Below the pieces are notes generated by a model that saw only the letters and a program-made list of their open reading frames with translations, did no database searches and was not told the origin of the DNA. A stretch of DNA of 64,000 nt from Gammaproteobacteria bacterium (lineage in GTDB: Bacteria > Pseudomonadota > Gammaproteobacteria > Pseudomonadales > Azotimanducaceae), in the NCBI GenBank assembly GCA_026708185.1, contig JAPOVK010000034.1:1-64000 (forward strand), written 5' to 3'. Of this stretch, positions 18,265 to 47,692 are shown piece by piece; the stretch's first letter is position 1, and each line of letters opens with the position of its first letter. The position numbers and the translations under genes are program-made.

Positions 18265-20895
18265 TCAGTGGGCGCTGATGGAAAGGGGGTCCGGGGCCGG
18301 TGCTTCCGGCACGCTTGCCGGCTGGTCGTCCGAAGACTCACGCGGCTCGGGGCGCTGCTTGAGCGCCTTGTGGATGACTTCGTCCATCCAGGCGACGGTA
18401 ACGATGTCGAGGTCGGCCTTGACGTTGTCCGGCACCTCTTTCAAATCCCGCTCGTTCTCTTTCGGGATCACAACGCGCTTGATGCCGCCCCGGTGGGCAG
18501 CCAGCAGTTTCTCCTTGAGACCGCCGATGGGCAGGATCTGACCCCGTAACGTGATCTCGCCGGTCATCGCAACGTCGGCCGCAACGGGTATTCGGGTCAG
18601 CACGCTCACAAGCGCCGTGCACATGCCAATGCCGGCGCTCGGCCCATCCTTCGGCGTCGCGCCCTCGGGCACGTGAATGTGCAGATCGTAACGCTCGTGG
18701 AAGTCGTCCGGAACGCCCAACGTGGCGGCCCGGCTGCGCACGAAGGTCAGTGCCGCTTGGATCGACTCCTGCATGACATCGCCAAGCGATCCCGTCTTGA
18801 TCTGGCGTCCCTTGCCGGGCACGGCCAAGGCTTCGATGTTGAGTAGCTCGCCGCCAGTCTGCGTCCAAGCGAGCCCGGTCACAACACCGACCTGATCCTC
18901 GGTTTCCGCACGGCCATAGTTGAACCTGCGGACACCGTTGAACTTCTCCAAGTCGTCCGGGCCGATCTCCCGGGGTTCTTTCTTGCGAGGGGCGCGCCCC
19001 TCGCGCTCCCCCGCTGACGGCTCTTCCTTGCGAGGGGCAAGCCCCTCGCGCTCCCCGGCTGAGGGCTCTTCCTTGCGAGGGGCAAGCCCCTCGCGCTCCC
19101 CGGCTGAGGGCTCTTCCTTGCGAGGGGCAAGCCCCTCGCGCTCCCCGGCTGAGGGCTCTTCCTTGCGAGGGGCAAGCCCCTCGCGCTCCCCCGCTGACGG
19201 CTCTCGGCTCTCTTGCCCTGCCAAGGCCTGCTCGGTGATCACCTTGCGGCACAGTTTCGCGATCTCGCGCTCCAATCCGCGCACGCCCGCCTCCTTGGTG
19301 TAGTAGCGGATCAGGTCGGTGAGCGCCTCGTCGGTAAGTCGAAACTCGTCGGCCTTCAAGCCGTTCAGGCGTTGCTGTTTCGGCGTCAGAAAACGAGACG
19401 CGATGTTGCGCTTCTCGTCCTCGGTGTAGCCGGCCAAGCGGATCACCTCCATGCGGTCGAGAAGTGCGGGCGGGATGTTCATGGAGTTGGAGGTGCACAC
19501 GAAGAACACGTCCGAGAGGTCGTAGTCCACCTCGAGGTAGTGGTCGTTGAAGGTGTTGTTCTGCTCCGGGTCGAGCACCTCGAGCAACGCGGAGGCCGGA
19601 TCGCCGCGCACATCCATGCCCATCTTGTCCACCTCGTCCAAGAGAAACAGCGGATTGCGAACCCCGGCCTTGGCCATTTTCTGCAGGATCTTGCCGGGCA
19701 TTGAGCCGATGTAGGTTCGCCGGTGTCCGCGAATCTCGGCCTCGTCGCGGACGCCTCCCAAGGCCATTCGGACGAACTTTCGGTTCGTGGCCCTGGCGAT
19801 GGATTCGCCGAGCGAGGTCTTGCCCACCCCGGGCGCGCCGACCAGGCACAACACCGGACCCTTCACCCTGTTCACACGGCTCTGTACGGCCAAATACTCG
19901 AGCACACGCTCCTTCACGTCTTCGAGGCCGAAGTGGTCCTCGTCCAGGATCTCCTGGGCGCGCTTGAGGTCACGTCGAACACGACGCTTCTTCTTCCAAG
20001 GCACCGACAATGCCCAGTCCAGGTAGCCACGCACGACGGTGGCCTCCGCCGACATCGGCGCCATCAGTTTCAACTTCGCCAACTCGGCGTTGGCCTTCTT
20101 CCGGGCCTCCTTCGACATGCCCGAAGCATCGATGCGTGCCTGAAGGTTGTCGAACTCGTTGGGTGCGTCCGACAGGTTCCCCAGCTCCTTGTGGATCGCC
20201 TTGATCTGCTCGTTGAGGTAGAACTCCCGCTGGCTCTTCTCCATCTGTTTCTTGACCCGGCCGCGGATGCGCTTGTCCATCGCCCGGGCGTCGATCTCGG
20301 CCTCGAGGTCGGCCAGCAAGCGTTGCACGCGCTGCTCGATGTCGAATGTCTCGAGAATCGCCTGCTTGGCTTCCAGCTTGAGCGGCGCCTGGGCAGCCAC
20401 CGTGTCTACCAGACGGGACGGGTCGTCAATGCTCGAGATGGAGGCAACCACGTCGTCGCCGATCTGCTTGGCGGTCTTGGCGAAGCGCTTGAACTGCGTG
20501 AGCAAGGCCCGGGTGATCGCCTCGGCCGTACCGGTGGGCAACTGTCCGTCCTCGAACACGGTCACGTCCGCCACGATGTAGTCCCCGGCGGGCTCGAGGC
20601 GGTCGATCCGCGCCCGTTCGCCACCTTCGACGAGAACCTTGACCTTGCCGTCGGGAAGGGGCAGGAATTGGAGCACGGTCGCGACGGTACCAACGGCGAA
20701 GAGATCACTTGCCCCCGGTTCTTCGACGTCCGCGTCCCGCTTGGCGACGACAAGGATCTGCTTGTCGTTGGCAGTTGCGGCCTGTACGGCCTTGATCGAG
20801 CGTTGCGTGCCGACGAACAGGGGGTGGATGCCGTGCGGATACACGACCATGTTGCGCAGCGGCAGTACGGCGATTCCGGTTAGCGAGCGGGACAC
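18265..20895 (-). CDS. lon: ATP-dependent protease La (Lon) with a 75-aa repeat insertion
   Basis: 876-aa Lon, about 75 residues longer than usual. Order: LON N-domain (about 8-200), coiled coil, AAA+ module with Walker A GAPGVGKT (353-360) and Walker B LFLLDEVD (416-423), then the proteolytic domain with catalytic Ser753 (GPSAGIGM) and Lys796. Residues 565-639 are five copies of a 15-aa unit, [15 protein letters not shown], placed exactly at the junction of the AAA+ alpha-helical subdomain and the P domain. Removing them leaves about 801 aa, the normal length. All catalytic residues are intact, so the enzyme is probably active with a charged, disordered linker. Start GTG 20895 with GAGG upstream. 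It follows clpX by 30 bp. Confidence 0.96.
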   Translation of the reverse strand: MSRSLTGIAVLPLRNMVVYPHGIHPLFVGTQRSIKAVQAATANDKQILVVAKRDADVEEPGASDLFAVGTVATVLQFLPLPDGKVKVLVEGGERARIDRLEPAGDYIVADVTVFEDGQLPTGTAEAITRALLTQFKRFAKTAKQIGDDVVASISSIDDPSRLVDTVAAQAPLKLEAKQAILETFDIEQRVQRLLADLEAEIDARAMDKRIRGRVKKQMEKSQREFYLNEQIKAIHKELGNLSDAPNEFDNLQARIDASGMSKEARKKANAELAKLKLMAPMSAEATVVRGYLDWALSVPWKKKRRVRRDLKRAQEILDEDHFGLEDVKERVLEYLAVQSRVNRVKGPVLCLVGAPGVGKTSLGESIARATNRKFVRMALGGVRDEAEIRGHRRTYIGSMPGKILQKMAKAGVRNPLFLLDEVDKMGMDVRGDPASALLEVLDPEQNNTFNDHYLEVDYDLSDVFFVCTSNSMNIPPALLDRMEVIRLAGYTEDEKRNIASRFLTPKQQRLNGLKADEFRLTDEALTDLIRYYTKEAGVRGLEREIAKLCRKVITEQALAGQESREPSAGEREGLAPRKEEPSAGEREGLAPRKEEPSAGEREGLAPRKEEPSAGEREGLAPRKEEPSAGEREGRAPRKKEPREIGPDDLEKFNGVRRFNYGRAETEDQVGVVTGLAWTQTGGELLNIEALAVPGKGRQIKTGSLGDVMQESIQAALTFVRSRAATLGVPDDFHERYDLHIHVPEGATPKDGPSAGIGMCTALVSVLTRIPVAADVAMTGEITLRGQILPIGGLKEKLLAAHRGGIKRVVIPKENERDLKEVPDNVKADLDIVTVAWMDEVIHKALKQRPEPRESSDDQPASVPEAPAPDPLSISAH
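18979..19203 (-). repeat. 45-bp palindromic tandem repeat, five copies, in frame within lon
   Basis: Five head-to-tail 45-bp units, each encoding 15 codons of lon ([15 protein letters not shown] with minor changes). Four units share the core GCGAGGGGCAAGCCCCTCGC, whose two 9-bp arms are perfectly complementary; in the unit at the low-coordinate end the core is GCGAGGGGCGCGCCCCTCGC, a perfect 20-bp palindrome. Middle units are identical or nearly so, indicating recent expansion. The two outer units share a variant CCCCCGCTGACGG in place of CCCCGGCTGAGGG on the plus strand. Confidence 0.95.
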
Positions 20896-20925
20896 GGCGC
20901 CGACCTCGATCTAGGCCGGCATGCG

Positions 20926-22212
20926 CTAGGGACTGCTAGCCGACTTCGGGGCCGCTTCCTCGCCGCCTTCGTAGAGCAGCATCGGTTCCTTGTCACCGTT
21001 GATGACGCTCTCGTCGAGCACCACCTCGGACACGGAGCCCGACGAGGGCAGGTCGTACATCGTATCGAGCAGGACGGCTTCCAGGATCGAACGCAGGCCA
21101 CGGGCACCGGTTTTGCGCTCCATCGCCTTCTTGGCGACCGCGCGCAAGGCGTCTTCGCGGAAGTCCACCGCCACACCTTCCATCTCGAAGAGCTTGCCGT
21201 ATTGGCGCGTCAGCGAGTTCTTGGGCTCGGTGAGGATTCGCACCAGGGCGTCCGTGTCGAGTTCCTCGAGCGTTGCCACGACCGGCAAGCGGCCGACGAA
21301 TTCGGGGATCAGCCCGTACTTGATGAGGTCCTCCGGCTCCACTAGGCGCAGCGTCTCGCCAATCGATTCAGGGTCGCGCGACGCCGCCGGATCGGCGCCG
21401 AAGCCGATATCGGTCTTGTTGGTGCGATCCATGATGACCTTCTGCAGGCCTGAAAACGCGCCGCCCGCGATGAACAGGATGTTCGACGTGTCAACCTGCA
21501 GGAATTCCTGCTGCGGGTGCTTACGGCCGCCCTGCGGCGGTACCGACGCGATCGTGCCCTCGATGAGCTTGAGCAGGGCTTGCTGAACGCCCTCGCCGGA
21601 TACATCGCGGGTGATCGACGGGTTGTCGGACTTGCGCGAGATCTTGTCGATTTCGTCGATGTAGACGATGCCCACCTGGGCGCGCTCGACGTCGTAGTCG
21701 CATTTCTGGAGCAGTTTCTGAATGATGTTCTCGACATCCTCGCCGACGTATCCCGCCTCCGTCAGCGTCGTCGCGTCTGCGATCGTGAAAGGCACGTCGA
21801 GCAGCCGCGCAAGCGTCTCGGCGAGCAGCGTCTTGCCGCATCCCGTCGGGCCAATGAGCAGGATATTGGATTTGGACAGTTCGACGTCGTCCTTCTTGCC
21901 GGCGTAGTTCAGCCGCTTGTAGTGGTTGTAGACCGCAACGGAGAGCACCTTCTTGGCGTGTTCCTGATCGATCACGTACTCGTCGAGGATGCCCTTGATT
22001 TCCTGCGGCACCGGCAGCTTCTGGCCTTCCTTGCCGTCGGAGCCGGGCTGCACCTCCTCGCGGATAATGTCGTTGCAGAGTTCCACGCACTCATCGCAAA
22101 TGTGCACGTTGGAACCGGCGATCAGCTTGCGTACCTCATGCTGGCTCTTGTGACAGAACGAGCAATAGAGGTAACTCCCGGAGTCGTCTCCTTTGCCGTG
22201 GTCGCTGGCCAT
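20926..22212 (-). CDS. clpX: ClpX, ATP-binding unfoldase of the ClpXP protease
   Basis: 428-aa AAA+ unfoldase. The N-terminal C4 zinc domain ([14 protein letters not shown] ... CDECVELC) recruits substrates and adaptors. Walker A is GPTGCGKT, Walker [10 protein letters not shown], the pore region is normal and the IGF loop for docking ClpP is in [11 protein letters not shown]. No repeat insertion is present in this gene, unlike lon and tig on either side. It lies downstream of clpP, separated by a 246-bp spacer containing repeat copies. Confidence 0.97.
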
Positions 22213-22314
22213 GAAACCTCTTGAGCGTTATTCGCTATCCGCGAAAGATGAGGGGTTGATAGAGATTTTGCAACCCCGCCGAGTCGGCTCCACGCGTGAC
22301 GTTGTGTGCGAGAG

Positions 22315-22437
22315 GAGCCCTCAGCCGGGGAGCGCGAGGGGCTCGCCCCTCGCACCGAAGAGCCCTCAGCCGGGGAGCGCGAGGGGACCGCCCCTCGCAA
22401 GAAGGAGCCCTCAGCCGGGGAGCGCGAGGGGCCTTGC
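22315..22437 (+). repeat. 45-bp palindromic repeat, two full copies and one broken copy, in the clpP-clpX spacer
   Basis: Units start at 22315, 22360 and 22405. The first two are full length; the third matches only through the first arm of the palindrome and then diverges. Cores are GCGAGGGGCTCGCCCCTCGC (perfect palindrome) and GCGAGGGGACCGCCCCTCGC. Orientation is opposite to that in lon and tig relative to transcription. These occupy about half of the spacer between the clpP stop and clpX start and would form strong hairpins in a clpP-clpX transcript. Confidence 0.92.
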
Positions 22438-22458
22438 CACGTACACGAAAGAGCCTGG

Positions 22459-23127
22459 CTAACCGTTGCCGGTTCGGTCCGGTGCGTCATCCGGGTGCTT
22501 CACGACATCGATCAAGCCGTACTCGGCGGCATCCTCAGGACTCATCCAGTAGTCTCGGTCGGTGTCTTCGGCGATCCGATCGACCGATTGACCCGTATGC
22601 GCCGCCAGAATCTCGTTCAACCGCAAGCGCATGGAGAGTATCTCGCGCGCCTGGATCTCGATGTCGGCCGCAACGCCGCGCGAACCGCCGGAGGGCTGGT
22701 GCAGCATCATGCGCGAATTCGGCAGCGCAAAGCGCTTGCCCTTGGTGCCCGCGGCCAGCAGGAATGCGCCCATGCTCGCCGCTTGACCGATGCAATAGGT
22801 CGCCACGTCGCAGCTCACGAACTGCATCGTGTCGTAGATCGACAGGCCGGAAGTCACCGCACCCCCCGGCGAGTTGATGTACAGGTTGATGTCCGCGTCG
22901 CCGTTCTCCGAGGCAAGGTAGAGCAACTGGGCCATGACCAAGCTCGCGACGTTGTCCTCGACCGGACCGACCAGGAACACGATCCGGTTCTTCAACAGTC
23001 TCGAGTAGATGTCGTAGGCACGCTCGCCACGGGCGCTCTGCTCAACGACCATCGGCACCAAACCAAGCCCCCGCGGGGCGACGTCGAAGCCGGCGTGAGC
23101 CGGTTGATCATACGGACTGCTTGGCAT
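22459..23127 (-). CDS. clpP: ClpP, proteolytic subunit of ClpXP
   Basis: 222-aa serine protease forming the ClpP barrel. The catalytic Ser is in [14 protein letters not shown] and the His in MMLHQPSGG, with the Asp in the DTDRDYW region. [19 protein letters not shown] is a typical block. ATG 23127 is preceded by a good AAGGAG site; the much longer upstream frame is antisense-type noise from the repeats in tig. It lies 22 bp downstream of tig. Confidence 0.97.
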
Positions 23128-23149
23128 CGAAAACTCCTTGTATGTCAAG

Positions 23150-24988
23150 TTACTCAGCGGTTTTGCGCTTGCCGAACATCCGCCGGAAGCGGCCACTGAA
23201 ACCCGCTGGCAAGGCATCTGGGTCATCCGCGCGCGGCGGCGCTCTGTCGCCCGGACCTTCCCTCTCCCGCCGATCGGCATCCTCGTCGGCGCTCGTCTTC
23301 GCCGGTTCGAGGGCGGATGGCACGTCGTCGCCGGGCGGGGGCGCGTCAGGCTCTTCCGTGCGAGGAGCGAGCCCCTCGCGCTCCCCGGCTGAGGGCTCTT
23401 CTTTGCGAGGGGCGGGCCCCTCGCGCTCCCCGGCTGAGGGCTCTTCTTTGCGAGGGGCGAGCCCCTCGCGCTCCCCGGCTGAGGGCTCTTCCGTGCGAGG
23501 GGCGAGCCCCTCGCGCTCCCCGGCTGAGGGCTCTTCCGGGAGCGCACGCCCGTTCATCACGTCCGCGTAGCTGGTTGGCACCTTTTCGACCTGCGCCTGG
23601 GCAAGGATGTGGTCGACCACCTGCTCTTCCAAGACCGCGGCCTCTATGGCCGCGAGTCGGTCCTCGTCCGCGTAGATGGCGCTGCGCACCTGCGCGCTCT
23701 CCTCGTAGGCGCTCGAGATCTCCTGGATGCGATCGCGCACGCGCTGGTCGTCTGCGGTCATGCGTTCGCTGGTGACGATCTTGTTGGCCGCCAATTGCAC
23801 CCGCACCCGTTGTTCGGCCATCGCCACGAACACCGGCGGCAACTCGTCCGGAACGTCGTTCAGCATCCGTTCCAGACGTGATCTCTCCTCGGCGACCTCG
23901 GCCTCGACCAAAGCCTGCGGCAGATCGAAACCGTGACTACGGCCCAACACCGCCAACGCTTCGCGCCGCTGGGCTTCCCGCAGCGCGTTGCCGAGTTCGA
24001 CCGCCATCCGCTCGCGGACGTCGGTGCGGAAACGCTGATCCCGGGGGGCGCCGTCCTCCTCGTCCTGGATCCCGAACTGGTCGTAGAACTCGTCATCGAG
24101 TTCGGGGAGGCTGGGTTCCTCGACCGCCCGCAAGGTGACCTTGCCGATGGCTTGCCCGGACGTCGGACTCGCCGATTCGCTGGACGCGGACTCCGCGACC
24201 ATCTCCGGGACCGGATCGCCGTCAGGATCGGGGTCATCGACCTCTGGCGCCCCAAGCGTATGGCCATGGTCGTGATCGTGCGCGTTGTCATCGTCATGTT
24301 CGTGCGCTTGGTCATGGCCGTGGTCGCCGGCCGCATCGCCCGGCAAGGTGGCCGGGAAGGCCCGCGTCTCGCCTGCAGTCATGCCACGAACCGCCTGGTC
24401 GAGTTCCGGCAAGAGGCCCACGCTTCCCACGATCAGCGATCGGCCCGTTCCCTCGGTCACCACCTCGCCTTCGGCGGTCAGCGAGTAGTCGACCGTCAGA
24501 CGATCCCCTTCACGCGCCTCGCGATCCACCCCATGCCATTGGACGCGCTGCTCGCGGAGCGTCTGCACCATCGCATCGACGTCCGACTCGGACACCTCTG
24601 CGACGGGCCGGCGAACCTTCAACTGGTTCAAGTCCGCAAGTTCAAACTCGGGCAGCACCTCGAAGGTCGCCGTGAATTCGAAATCGGCGCCCGCCTCGAG
24701 CTTGACGATCTCCACGTCGGCACGGCTCGCAAGGGCAAGATCCTGTTCCTGCACCGCCTCCTGCAGGCTCGTCTGAAGCAGCTCGGAGGCGACCTCCTCG
24801 CGCAGCCTCGGGCCGAATCGGCGCCGGACCTCGCTGATCGGAACCTTGCCCGGTCGAAACCCGGGGAGCTTGACCTGGCCTGCCGTCTTCCTGACGTGCT
24901 CGGCGAATTGCCCCTCGAAGGTGGCCGACGGGACGGCAATGGTCATCTTGCGCGTCAGGCCTTGTGCCGTCTCGATCGATACCCGCAT
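23150..24988 (-). CDS. tig: Trigger factor with His-rich insertion and repeat-containing C-terminal tail
   Basis: Ribosome-associated chaperone, 612 aa against a usual length near 430. The ribosome-binding signature GFRPGKVP (43-50) is intact. The PPIase domain (from about 160) is interrupted at roughly 217-278 by an Asp/His/Glu-rich segment with eight His between 223 and 243, followed by an acidic Ser/Pro stretch; the domain then resumes with [20 protein letters not shown]. The C-terminal chaperone arms end near YADVMNGR. Residues 486-545 are four copies of a 15-aa unit ([15 protein letters not shown] type), followed by a 67-aa charged tail ending [13 protein letters not shown]. The His-rich insert recalls metal-binding tails of SlyD-type chaperones (inference). 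First gene of the tig-clpP-clpX-lon series. Confidence 0.95.
23354..23533 (-). repeat. 45-bp palindromic tandem repeat, four copies, in frame within tig
   Basis: Four exact-period 45-bp units coding for residues 486-545 of trigger factor, in the same orientation and reading frame as the lon array. Cores vary slightly: GCGAGGGGCGAGCCCCTCGC, GCGAGGGGCGGGCCCCTCGC and one with GAGGAGC. The non-palindromic part of the unit (CTCCCCGGCTGAGGGCTC on the plus strand) is identical between copies. Confidence 0.95.
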
Positions 24989-25018
24989 GATTCCCTATGT
25001 AGGCGCCCCAAGGTGGAT

Positions 25019-25095
25019 TGGGGTGGATGATGGGACTTGAACCCACGACGACCGGATCCACAATCCGGGGCTCTACCAACTGAGCTACACCCACC
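25019..25095 (-). tRNA. tRNA-His (anticodon GTG)
   Basis: Minus-strand cloverleaf starting GGTGGGTGTAGCTC with the extra 5' G(-1) of tRNA-His pairing with C73. The anticodon loop reads ATTGTGG (GTG) and the T-arm GTGGGTTCAAGTCCCA. CCA is encoded (25019-25021). It is the last of three tRNA genes, 30 bp upstream of tig, so read-through into tig is possible. Confidence 0.97.
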
Positions 25096-25174
25096 ATTGC
25101 ACGTGGCGTCGGCGTGTCAAGGACCGCCGGATCACGCGAGGTCGCGATTCTACACCGTTTCGGGGCGCGCGAGC

Positions 25175-25207
25175 GCCGGGGAGCGCGAGGGGCTTGCCCC
25201 TCCCAAG
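25175..25207 (+). repeat. Solitary partial copy of the 45-bp repeat between tRNA genes
   Basis: In the 143-bp spacer between tRNA-His and tRNA-Arg, GCCGGGGAGCGCGAGGGG then CTTGCCCCTCCCAAG matches about 33 bp of the repeat unit, including the palindrome with one mismatch in the right arm. The outer GAGCCCTCA part is missing. Orientation matches the clpP-clpX spacer copies. The rest of the spacer shows nothing I recognise. Confidence 0.85.
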
Positions 25208-25238
25208 CATGGCCGACCCGGCCGGGCGGCGCACGGTC

Positions 25239-47008: not shown

Positions 47009-47666
47009 ATGCTCATCGAAATCTACTCCGACGTCATCTGCCCGTGGTGCTACGTCGGCAAGCGGCGGCTGGACAAGGCGCTCACCGCGCCGGCCTGCGA
47101 CGACGTCGATGTGGTCTGGCGGCCCTTCCAGCTCTATCCGAACCTCCCCTCTTCCGGCATGGACCGGGACGAGTACCTCGCACGTCGCTACGGCGAGAAG
47201 GCGGACCGCGCCCGGGCGCCGAGGCAGATCGTCGAGGAGGGCGAAGACGCCGGAATCGCTTTCGACTACGGTGCGATCGGCAGGATGCCGAACACGCTGA
47301 CGGCGCACCGGCTGCTCGACTACGCCGAGCGCCGGTCAGGCGCCGACGTGCAGCACGAACTCGCGGAGGTTCTGTTCCGCTACTACTTCTGCGAGGGCCG
47401 AGACGTCGGCGACGTCGATACGCTCTGCGAAGCCGCGTCGTCTCGGTTTGGATGCCCTCGAGGCGCGTCGCTACCTCGACGAACGCGCCGACGAGGAGTT
47501 CATGCGCGCGCGGATCAGGAGCGCGTTCGAGATCGGCGTGGTGAGCGTCCCGTGCTACCTGTTGGGTGGGGGTTTCATGCTGCCCGGCGCCCAGTCGTCC
47601 GACGTCATGCTCCAGTTCATCGAACGCGCCAAATCGAAGCTGGCTGAAGCCAGTGAAGCTGGCTGA
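47009..47666 (+). pseudogene. DsbA-family (FrnE-like) oxidoreductase broken by a 1-nt frameshift
   Basis: The first frame gives MLIEIYSDVICPWCYVGKRR, a thioredoxin-fold oxidoreductase with a CPWC active site, and runs correctly to about 47440 (DTLCEAASS). The rest of the family sequence (LDALEARRYLDERADEEFMR, SAFEIGVVSVPCYLLGG, MLQFIERAKSKLAE) continues in the next frame. Removing one T from TTT at 47447-47449 restores a continuous protein of about 218 aa. Either a recent frameshift or a sequencing error in the short T run. Relatives are 2-hydroxychromene-2-carboxylate isomerase-like disulfide isomerases. Confidence 0.85.
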
Positions 47667-47692
47667 AGCCAGTTAAGCTGGCTGAGAGCCAG
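47637..47692 (+). repeat. Three 19-bp hairpin repeats at the 3' end of the DsbA-family gene
   Basis: Three tandem units of AAGCTGGCTGAAGCCAGTG (last unit altered). Each contains the inverted repeat CTGGCT-ga-AGCCAG. The stop codon of the DsbA-family gene lies in the second unit, so unit one encodes the C-terminal KLAEASEAG. It may act as a bidirectional terminator between this gene and the convergent gene at 47706. Unrelated in sequence to the 45-bp repeat. Confidence 0.8.

Follow-up and report, generated by a model that had tools for sequence, protein, structure and literature searches.

A mobile 45-bp palindromic repeat with a triplex-type core, in and between genes of the lon-clpX-clpP-tig locus

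The repeat at the lon-clpX-clpP-tig-tRNA locus

The first 64,000 nucleotides of contig JAPOVK010000034.1 (assembly GCA_026708185.1, a gammaproteobacterium of the Azotimanducaceae), referred to here as the window, carry lon, clpX, clpP and tig together with tRNA genes, and a 45-bp palindromic repeat occurs at four sites among them. Five units lie in lon, three (one decayed) in the clpP-clpX spacer, four in tig and one headless copy at the tRNA genes (Table 1), which agrees with a preliminary description of the window made from its letters alone. Pfam matches confirm the identities of Lon, trigger factor, ClpX and ClpP. The lon insert separates the AAA+ lid from the protease domain, with the Lon_lid match running to amino acid (aa) 560 and Lon_C beginning at aa 644 of 876, and the tig units lie downstream of the Trigger_C match, which ends at aa 462 of 612. 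As the Pfam match in the listed clpP frame covers aa 173-349, the true clpP start lies downstream of the listed one.

The unit has the consensus GAGCCCTCAG-CCGGGGAGC-GCGAGGGGC-NN-GCCCCTCGC-AWGRAA, with a conserved head of 19 bases, a loop of 2 bases in most copies, a sharp left end and a softer right end. Tandem Repeats Finder reports period-45 arrays at 18973-19204 (5.2 copies), 22313-22433 (2.7) and 23349-23538 (4.2). With up to 3 mismatches allowed, a 27-base pattern of head plus half-core matches the window 12 times, against 0 in 100 shuffles, and the 20-base palindrome occurs 12 times, against 0.32 expected. The preliminary description had counted five of the six reading frames as free of stops; one frame of the consensus does contain a TGA (4 stops across the 4 tig units read that way), and the openness of the other five was judged by reading. 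A 66-bp variant has the same ends plus an additional inner hairpin, and its pattern is found at 16 places in the genome at up to 2 mismatches. Rfam matched nothing but three tRNAs within the window, and gave no match in 11 further loci.

Table 1 Repeat sites and neighbouring genes, in window positions
Feature	Position	Strand	Remark
Five tandem 45-bp units in lon	18979..19203 (18979-19023, 19024-19068, 19069-19113, 19114-19158, 19159-19203)	-	75 aa
Three units, clpP-clpX spacer	22315..22449 (22315-22359, 22360-22404, 22405-22449)	+	third decayed
Four tandem units near tig 3' end	23354..23533	-	behind Trigger_C match
One headless copy, tRNA-His/tRNA-Arg spacer	25176..25210 (core 25176-25204)	+	
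lon	18265..20895	-	876 aa including insert
clpX	20926..22212	-	Pfam
clpP	22459..23547	-	listed open frame
tig (trigger factor)	23150..24988	-	612 aa including insert

Copy number, distribution and mobility

The repeat family first described from the window extends through the genome and into relatives. Across the genome containing the window (G000; 5.13 Mb, 65 contigs), the 29-base core recurs in 198 copies at up to 3 mismatches, with 0 for a reversed control pattern, and head plus half-core gives 236 matches. Units were delimited in 64 segments including the window (540 kb), which hold 168 of the 198 cores, the other 30 lying outside this set. With decayed units admitted, the set comprises 190 units in 90 arrays, neighbours being spaced by exactly 45 bases in 83 of 100 cases; 20 of the 90 arrays stand at a contig end, and true array lengths may be greater. 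Three tandem copies of the 66-bp variant stand at C34:210793-210944 of G000 (L086, L120-L122), so that this form, too, has undergone tandem expansion there.

The core is present in 31 of 294 genomes, a set that contains the window's own, and all 31 belong to one family: 14 of 16 in the genus, nine in genus g7 and eight in genus g34. The core was found in 0 of 114 genomes from other families of the order, and the head pattern in 0 of 368 other genomes of a class-wide sample. Copy numbers within the genus are uneven, with 198 in G000 and 81 in a sister species (G007) against 0 to 39 in the 14 other genomes of the genus. In a scan of named contigs, headed matches among those listed came from the Gammaproteobacteria bins SB0675_bin_3, SB0670_bin_10, SB0661_bin_54, CAR3_bin_15, COS4_bin_45, RHO2_bin_33 and RHO3_bin_63 and from one Pseudomonadales bin; most of these bins are presumably sponge-derived. 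Tandem 45-bp copies are also present in the single-contig assemblies G089, G130 and G012, so the arrays are probably not an artefact of one assembly.

Comparison with the sister species G007, whose ClpX is given as 100% identical, shows that the repeat is mobile. Flanks are mostly 84 to 97% alike, two sites being lower, and both flanks could be located in the G007 stretches for 34 of the 90 arrays. Judged by eye from the alignments, 12 of these sites are empty in G007 (lon, tig, C1:12504, C3:170552, C4:77382, C25:52572, C27:2930, C31:211960, C36:12275, C42:150329, C43:2541 and C43:6130), 18 are shared and four are unclear (C4:82920, C42:66866, C47:3089 and the tRNA-His/tRNA-Arg site, where G007 has no core and the alignment is not clean). 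Conversely, five clean insertions are found in G007 only, after four other rows had been dropped as array misalignments. Among the 18 shared arrays, at least 10 have a different number or type of units, five match and three are not judgeable from the stretch shown; copy numbers in G000 and G007 are, for example, 3 and 1 at C44 and at C62:3079, and 4 and 2 at C36:8175. For the clpP-clpX spacer, G007 has a counterpart of the decayed third copy only. Mobility and tandem growth are thus visible between sister species at single-base resolution, which opens the movement of small palindromes without a linked transposase to test.

The lon linker insert is absent from all 19 other lon genes read in 20 stretches fetched from relatives, and as judged from these sequences it is not ancestral protein sequence; for tig, the comparison is with G007 alone, where the site is empty. 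The preliminary view of a palindromic repeat invading genes and spacers alike is therefore upheld by the genome-wide copies, the empty sister sites and the lon orthologues, and the readings that could have undone it, namely an assembly artefact or conserved protein sequence, both fail. At the ribosomal protein S17 gene (G000 C28:15211-15345, L079; G007 L267), both species carry repeats and their unit composition differs.

Core geometry, insertion target and reading frame

Judged by the rules of the ITxF finder, the core, GGGGAG-CGC-GAGGGG-CNNG-CCCCTC, is a perfect six-triad intrastrand triplex motif, with the third strand first, the purine strand next and the pyrimidine strand last. These rules ask for three stems of 6-15 bases, G-G-C, A-A-T or T-A-T triads and loops of 1-6 (PMC4666352; this source, and PMC3733652 and PMC8266576 below, are cited in excerpt). 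Of 190 units, 159 satisfy them, as against 0 matches elsewhere in 540,053 bases and 0 in two shuffles.

Variation in the third strand was followed through the 31 carrier genomes and found in 15 of them, in three genera. Where the base opposite an A:T pair is not A, it is T in 34 of 36 copies, G in one and C in one; as a transition, a change to G would be expected more often. The figures count copies, not events, and come from about 20 loci. At a G:C pair variant, the third strand has G in 3 of 3 copies of one array. As T-A-T is an allowed triad (PMC4666352), third-strand changes mostly appear to obey the triad rules. The hairpin into which one strand of each unit could fold has 9 bp, and the GGGGAG before it repeats its purine strand in mirror order; this triplex structure may form in cells and be what the moving agent acts on. 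In E. coli, triplex motifs have been linked to unstable loci (PMC4666352).

The exact 28-base core CGGGGAGCGCGAGGGGCNNGCCCCTCGC also occurs, among the matches listed, in many Rhodobacteraceae contigs (among L134-L237, e.g. L141 and L205) and in four viral contigs (L238-L241). There it is headless and mostly follows a TTCTTC..AAATAYYC-like context, and some neighbouring copies have different hairpins behind AAATAYYCCGGGG; six loci of this type gave no Rfam match. The Rhodobacteraceae core has the same triplex geometry. Since its listed copies have neither head nor tail, and mostly other loops, kinship with the repeat was rejected, and we read the likeness as probable convergence on the same geometry.

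Array starts are well defined: 81 of 90 have a full head, seven are headless, one is cut by a contig end and one is shifted by one base. A purine precedes the first unit in 65 of 71 cases. Several empty alleles have a non-purine at that position, so insertion seems to bring this purine with it. Seventeen empty alleles, 12 in G007 and five at the G007-only insertions, have GAG at the junction in eight cases and GAGCC in six (by eye), the new unit then lying 5' of it. Of 61 arrays in G000, 21 have GAG behind the last unit and 10 have GAGCC, against backgrounds of 1.7% and 0.16%; the 61 are 68 arrays less seven followed by another unit, with which the counts become 26 and 15 of 68. GAGCC is also how the unit itself begins, so an inserted unit would offer a further target and head-to-tail rows would be favoured. 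Within arrays, 122 of 159 pairs (77%) have the same loop dinucleotide, against 2991 of 13869 (22%) between arrays, which points to local duplication for most array growth. Some joints are less regular: tig and C36:12275 have 1 to 3 additional bases at their left joints, G007 has a 42-base insert at L268, and C43:2541 has a matching CCTCA in place of the head, which later deletion could also explain.

Host genes include those for Lon, trigger factor, ribosomal protein S17 (as an N-terminal extension), RsmH/MraW, ZipA, a CcmI/CycH protein and HflX, and further a DsbD N-domain protein, a tyrosine recombinase (at its C end) and a secretin at a contig end. Each in-gene unit adds 15 aa and keeps the frame, in line with the early claim that insertion and expansion are frame-preserving: spacings inside genes equal 45 bp in 31 of 31 cases. 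Elsewhere they are a multiple of 3 in 53 of 69 (p 0.002); because spacings are not independent, we also counted by array, and other spacings occur in 0 of 12 arrays in genes against 7 of 34 elsewhere. A ribosomal protein, a protease, a chaperone and a division protein have received 1 to 6 copies of the same 15 residues, which amounts to a natural peptide-insertion experiment.

A frame test that ignores stops took in the 69 arrays flanked by 240 bases on either side, of which 17 have coding sequence on both flanks; 14 are read in sense phase 0, three in sense phase 2 and none antisense. In this count tig was corrected by hand to sense phase 0, as fewer than 240 bases of the gene follow the array, which made the automatic strand wrong; without C49:21605, a doubtful array (5 mismatches, headless), 13 of 16 remain in sense phase 0. 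The 240-base requirement excludes arrays near gene ends, including the three antisense arrays of a looser count based on a gene caller, in which 16 of 26 in-gene arrays are in sense phase 0. That looser count is biased, as a gene caller cannot put a stop-bearing array inside a gene. Within genes, 27% of GAGCC sites are in sense phase 0 and 28% in antisense phase 2, a reading that would contain TGA. As the latter sites are as common, yet carry no array in the stop-ignoring count, selection or strand preference seems to have removed such insertions. In-frame insertions may be kept because the peptide is short, charged and in linkers or near protein ends.

Of the 70 arrays away from contig ends, 44 lie outside genes or at the very gene end. 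The 42 arrays outside genes comprise 22 in co-directional, 14 in divergent and six in convergent spacers, with spacer lengths of 22.6, 14.0 and 3.2 kb. Placement thus roughly follows spacer length, and a role as terminator or mRNA end was rejected on this ground.

Mode of movement and relation to known repeats

Taken together, these features make it likely that the repeat is a non-autonomous mobile element that inserts as whole units near GAG or GAGCC, grows in tandem and carries a structure on which a moving agent acts. One 45-bp unit, less often one of 66 bp, would be inserted whole, often just 5' of GAG/GAGCC and hence beside sequence like its own left end, and the array would then lengthen or shorten by local tandem duplication. 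The agent may be an HUH enzyme acting in trans, similar to the tyrosine transposases associated with repetitive extragenic palindromic (REP) elements (RAYTs), or else replication template switching at the structure; the fixed left end inclines us slightly to an enzyme.

Candidate enzymes were surveyed with two models. G000 has two weak Y1 genes, neither adjoining the repeat. PF01797 matches 33 genomes out of 53, with 17 among the 30 carriers and 16 among the 23 non-carriers, and has no match in G104 (41 copies) or G120 (38 copies). All seven genomes with at least 33 copies (G000, G007, G010, G048, G104, G120 and G151) show one or more matches to the RAYT model NF047646 at E up to 0.01, although only G048 and G151 pass the curated cut-off of that model; the enzymes are also of different kinds, with frames of 215 aa in G048 and G151 against 340-420 aa in G104 and G120. 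Among single-contig carriers, G053 and G075 have weak NF047646 matches, and G012, G013, G089 and G130 (4 to 11 copies) have no match to either model. Repeat-free genomes vary as well: G016 has 10 NF047646 matches and G020 four, and G026, G027 and G036 have none. The preliminary description had suggested a search for a RAYT transposase with similar ends; the repeat is absent from the Y1/RAYT stretches fetched (L031, L032, L302-L313, L320-L335), which are part of all matches, span 1.9 to 16.3 kb, hold the same gene twice in some cases and come mostly from non-carriers in L302-L313. They contain four stray 3-mismatch matches to 16-17-base probes, none with the palindrome. The two related Y1-type genes of G000 (C23:71445 and C13:69089; L031, L032), one probably frameshifted, stand beside other repeats (GAAAAGGGCGATGTTCT), which may be their own mobile repeats.

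Several observations weigh against the mobile-element picture or parts of it. The right side lacks GAG in 40 of 61 arrays, so the target preference is not strict, and the triplex rule excludes 31 of 190 units. T variants of the third strand may be one subfamily that spread, the 89 distinct cores offer too little variation for stem covariation (few two-sided changes, some perhaps in non-members), and hairpin energy alone is not unusual (z -0.84). In the looser frame count, 3 of 26 arrays are antisense (C4:66615, C31:211960 and C40:21403, each near a predicted gene end, within 49, 143 and 91 bases respectively), and the phase-0 excess among open frames has p 0.01 if the target is GAGCC and p 0.28 if it is GAGCCC. 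A weak test saw no replication-strand bias relative to local GC skew (36 to 28, p 0.38). The RAYT-type loci without the repeat and the four single-contig carriers without a match count on the same side, and the guide rule for RAYT cleavage, as given in the excerpt of PMC8266576, offers no obvious prediction of cleavage at RAA^GAG.

Two accounts of the moving agent deserve serious weight. That the repeat is a REP-type element moved in trans by a RAYT, as proposed for the REPs of the GTAG superfamily, we hold to be quite possible, though short of probable. In IS200/IS605-type systems the target resembles the element's own end, much as here, and the fixed start of 81 of 90 arrays and the NF047646 matches in every copy-rich genome fit such an enzyme. 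Against it stand the enzyme survey (no fetched locus carries the repeat, enzyme kinds differ among carriers, matches occur in repeat-free G016 and G020 but are weak or missing in six single-contig carriers, and PF01797 is spread over carriers and non-carriers alike) and the missing GTAG tag. Alternatively, no transposase is involved: the triplex or hairpin would stall replication, and the nascent strand would switch template at short matches such as GAGCC, copying and tandem-duplicating units. This we consider possible but again not the probable case. It draws on the triplex rule, on the local instability tied to such motifs in E. coli (PMC4666352), on the additional bases, the 42-base insert and the CCTCA joint (if not a later deletion), and on carriers without HUH matches. 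It accords poorly with 81 of 90 arrays beginning at the same base, with the right joints that lack GAG, and with left joints that show a purine preference only.

A bolder version is a self-spreading 45-base triplex element that has its own preferred target, GAGCC, as one of its ends, makes a further insertion beside each new one likely and, without any dedicated transposase, writes 15-residue peptides into S17, Lon, trigger factor, RsmH and ZipA; this seems to us rather unlikely. Far less probable is that these are old, vertically inherited repeats that are now only lost and whose arrays change by slippage. The 18 of 34 comparable sites common to G007 and the old, decayed third clpP-clpX copy would suit that account, but the lon site is empty in all relatives read, G007 has five insertions of its own, and the copy numbers of G000 and G007 tower over those of the other 14 genomes of the genus. 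We give still less credence to ordinary protein repeats selected for function as a charged linker peptide; 14 of the 17 intragenic arrays do yield the same kind of peptide, yet most non-edge arrays lie outside genes or at their very end, the host proteins are unrelated and lon orthologues lack the insert.

BIMEs and REPINs resemble the repeat in being mobile palindromes for which movement by an enzyme in trans is assumed, but they consist of inverted REP pairs, whereas the units here are direct repeats. The GTAG and CGTC superfamilies of REPs likewise consist of short palindromes present many times over, in some families with clusters inside housekeeping genes that add up to 43-82 aa, and tandem-reiterated clusters occur; a RAYT gene flanked by the repeat is frequent, but not universal, among GTAG REPs (PMC3733652). 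Our repeat differs in its larger unit, its conserved 19-base head and its extragenic placement, which tracks spacer length instead of the bias of those REPs to convergent and co-directional spacers. No GTAG tag stands beside the stem in the copies listed, which have GGGGAGC before and AWGRAA after it, and no CGTC tag at the stem foot; the loop is mostly 2 bases against 4-5 in CGTC REPs. Rickettsia palindromic elements (RPEs; cited in PMC3733652) share a behaviour, being palindromic and in frame in unrelated genes. Their host is a different one, PMC3733652 assigns RPE-4 and RPE-6 to the CGTC group, and the comparison was by description alone.

The E. coli family TMECO shares a G-rich third strand plus hairpin, many near-identical copies and unstable loci, but its order is pyrimidine-purine-third, as against third-purine-pyrimidine here, and its copies in E. 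coli MG1655 all lie between genes, form inverted pairs in some cases and are unlinked to mobile elements (PMC4666352). Unlike our arrays, head-to-tail arrays are not mentioned for it in the excerpt of that source. Intragenic clustered palindromes (PMC3733652) and triplex repeats (PMC4666352) are already known; the present repeat has neither REP tag and is head-to-tail, triplex-type and intragenic at once, and it links the separate fields of mobile palindromes (REP, RPE) and intrastrand DNA triplexes. Searches of the open-licence literature with its DNA words and peptide found no report of this repeat.

Two other repeats were seen in the window. A 24-bp repeat accompanies a His/Asp-rich stretch inside tig (24261-24315), and a 19-bp tandem repeat, GAAGCTGGCTGAAGCCAGT, itself partly palindromic, is present in 2.9 copies at 47636-47692.

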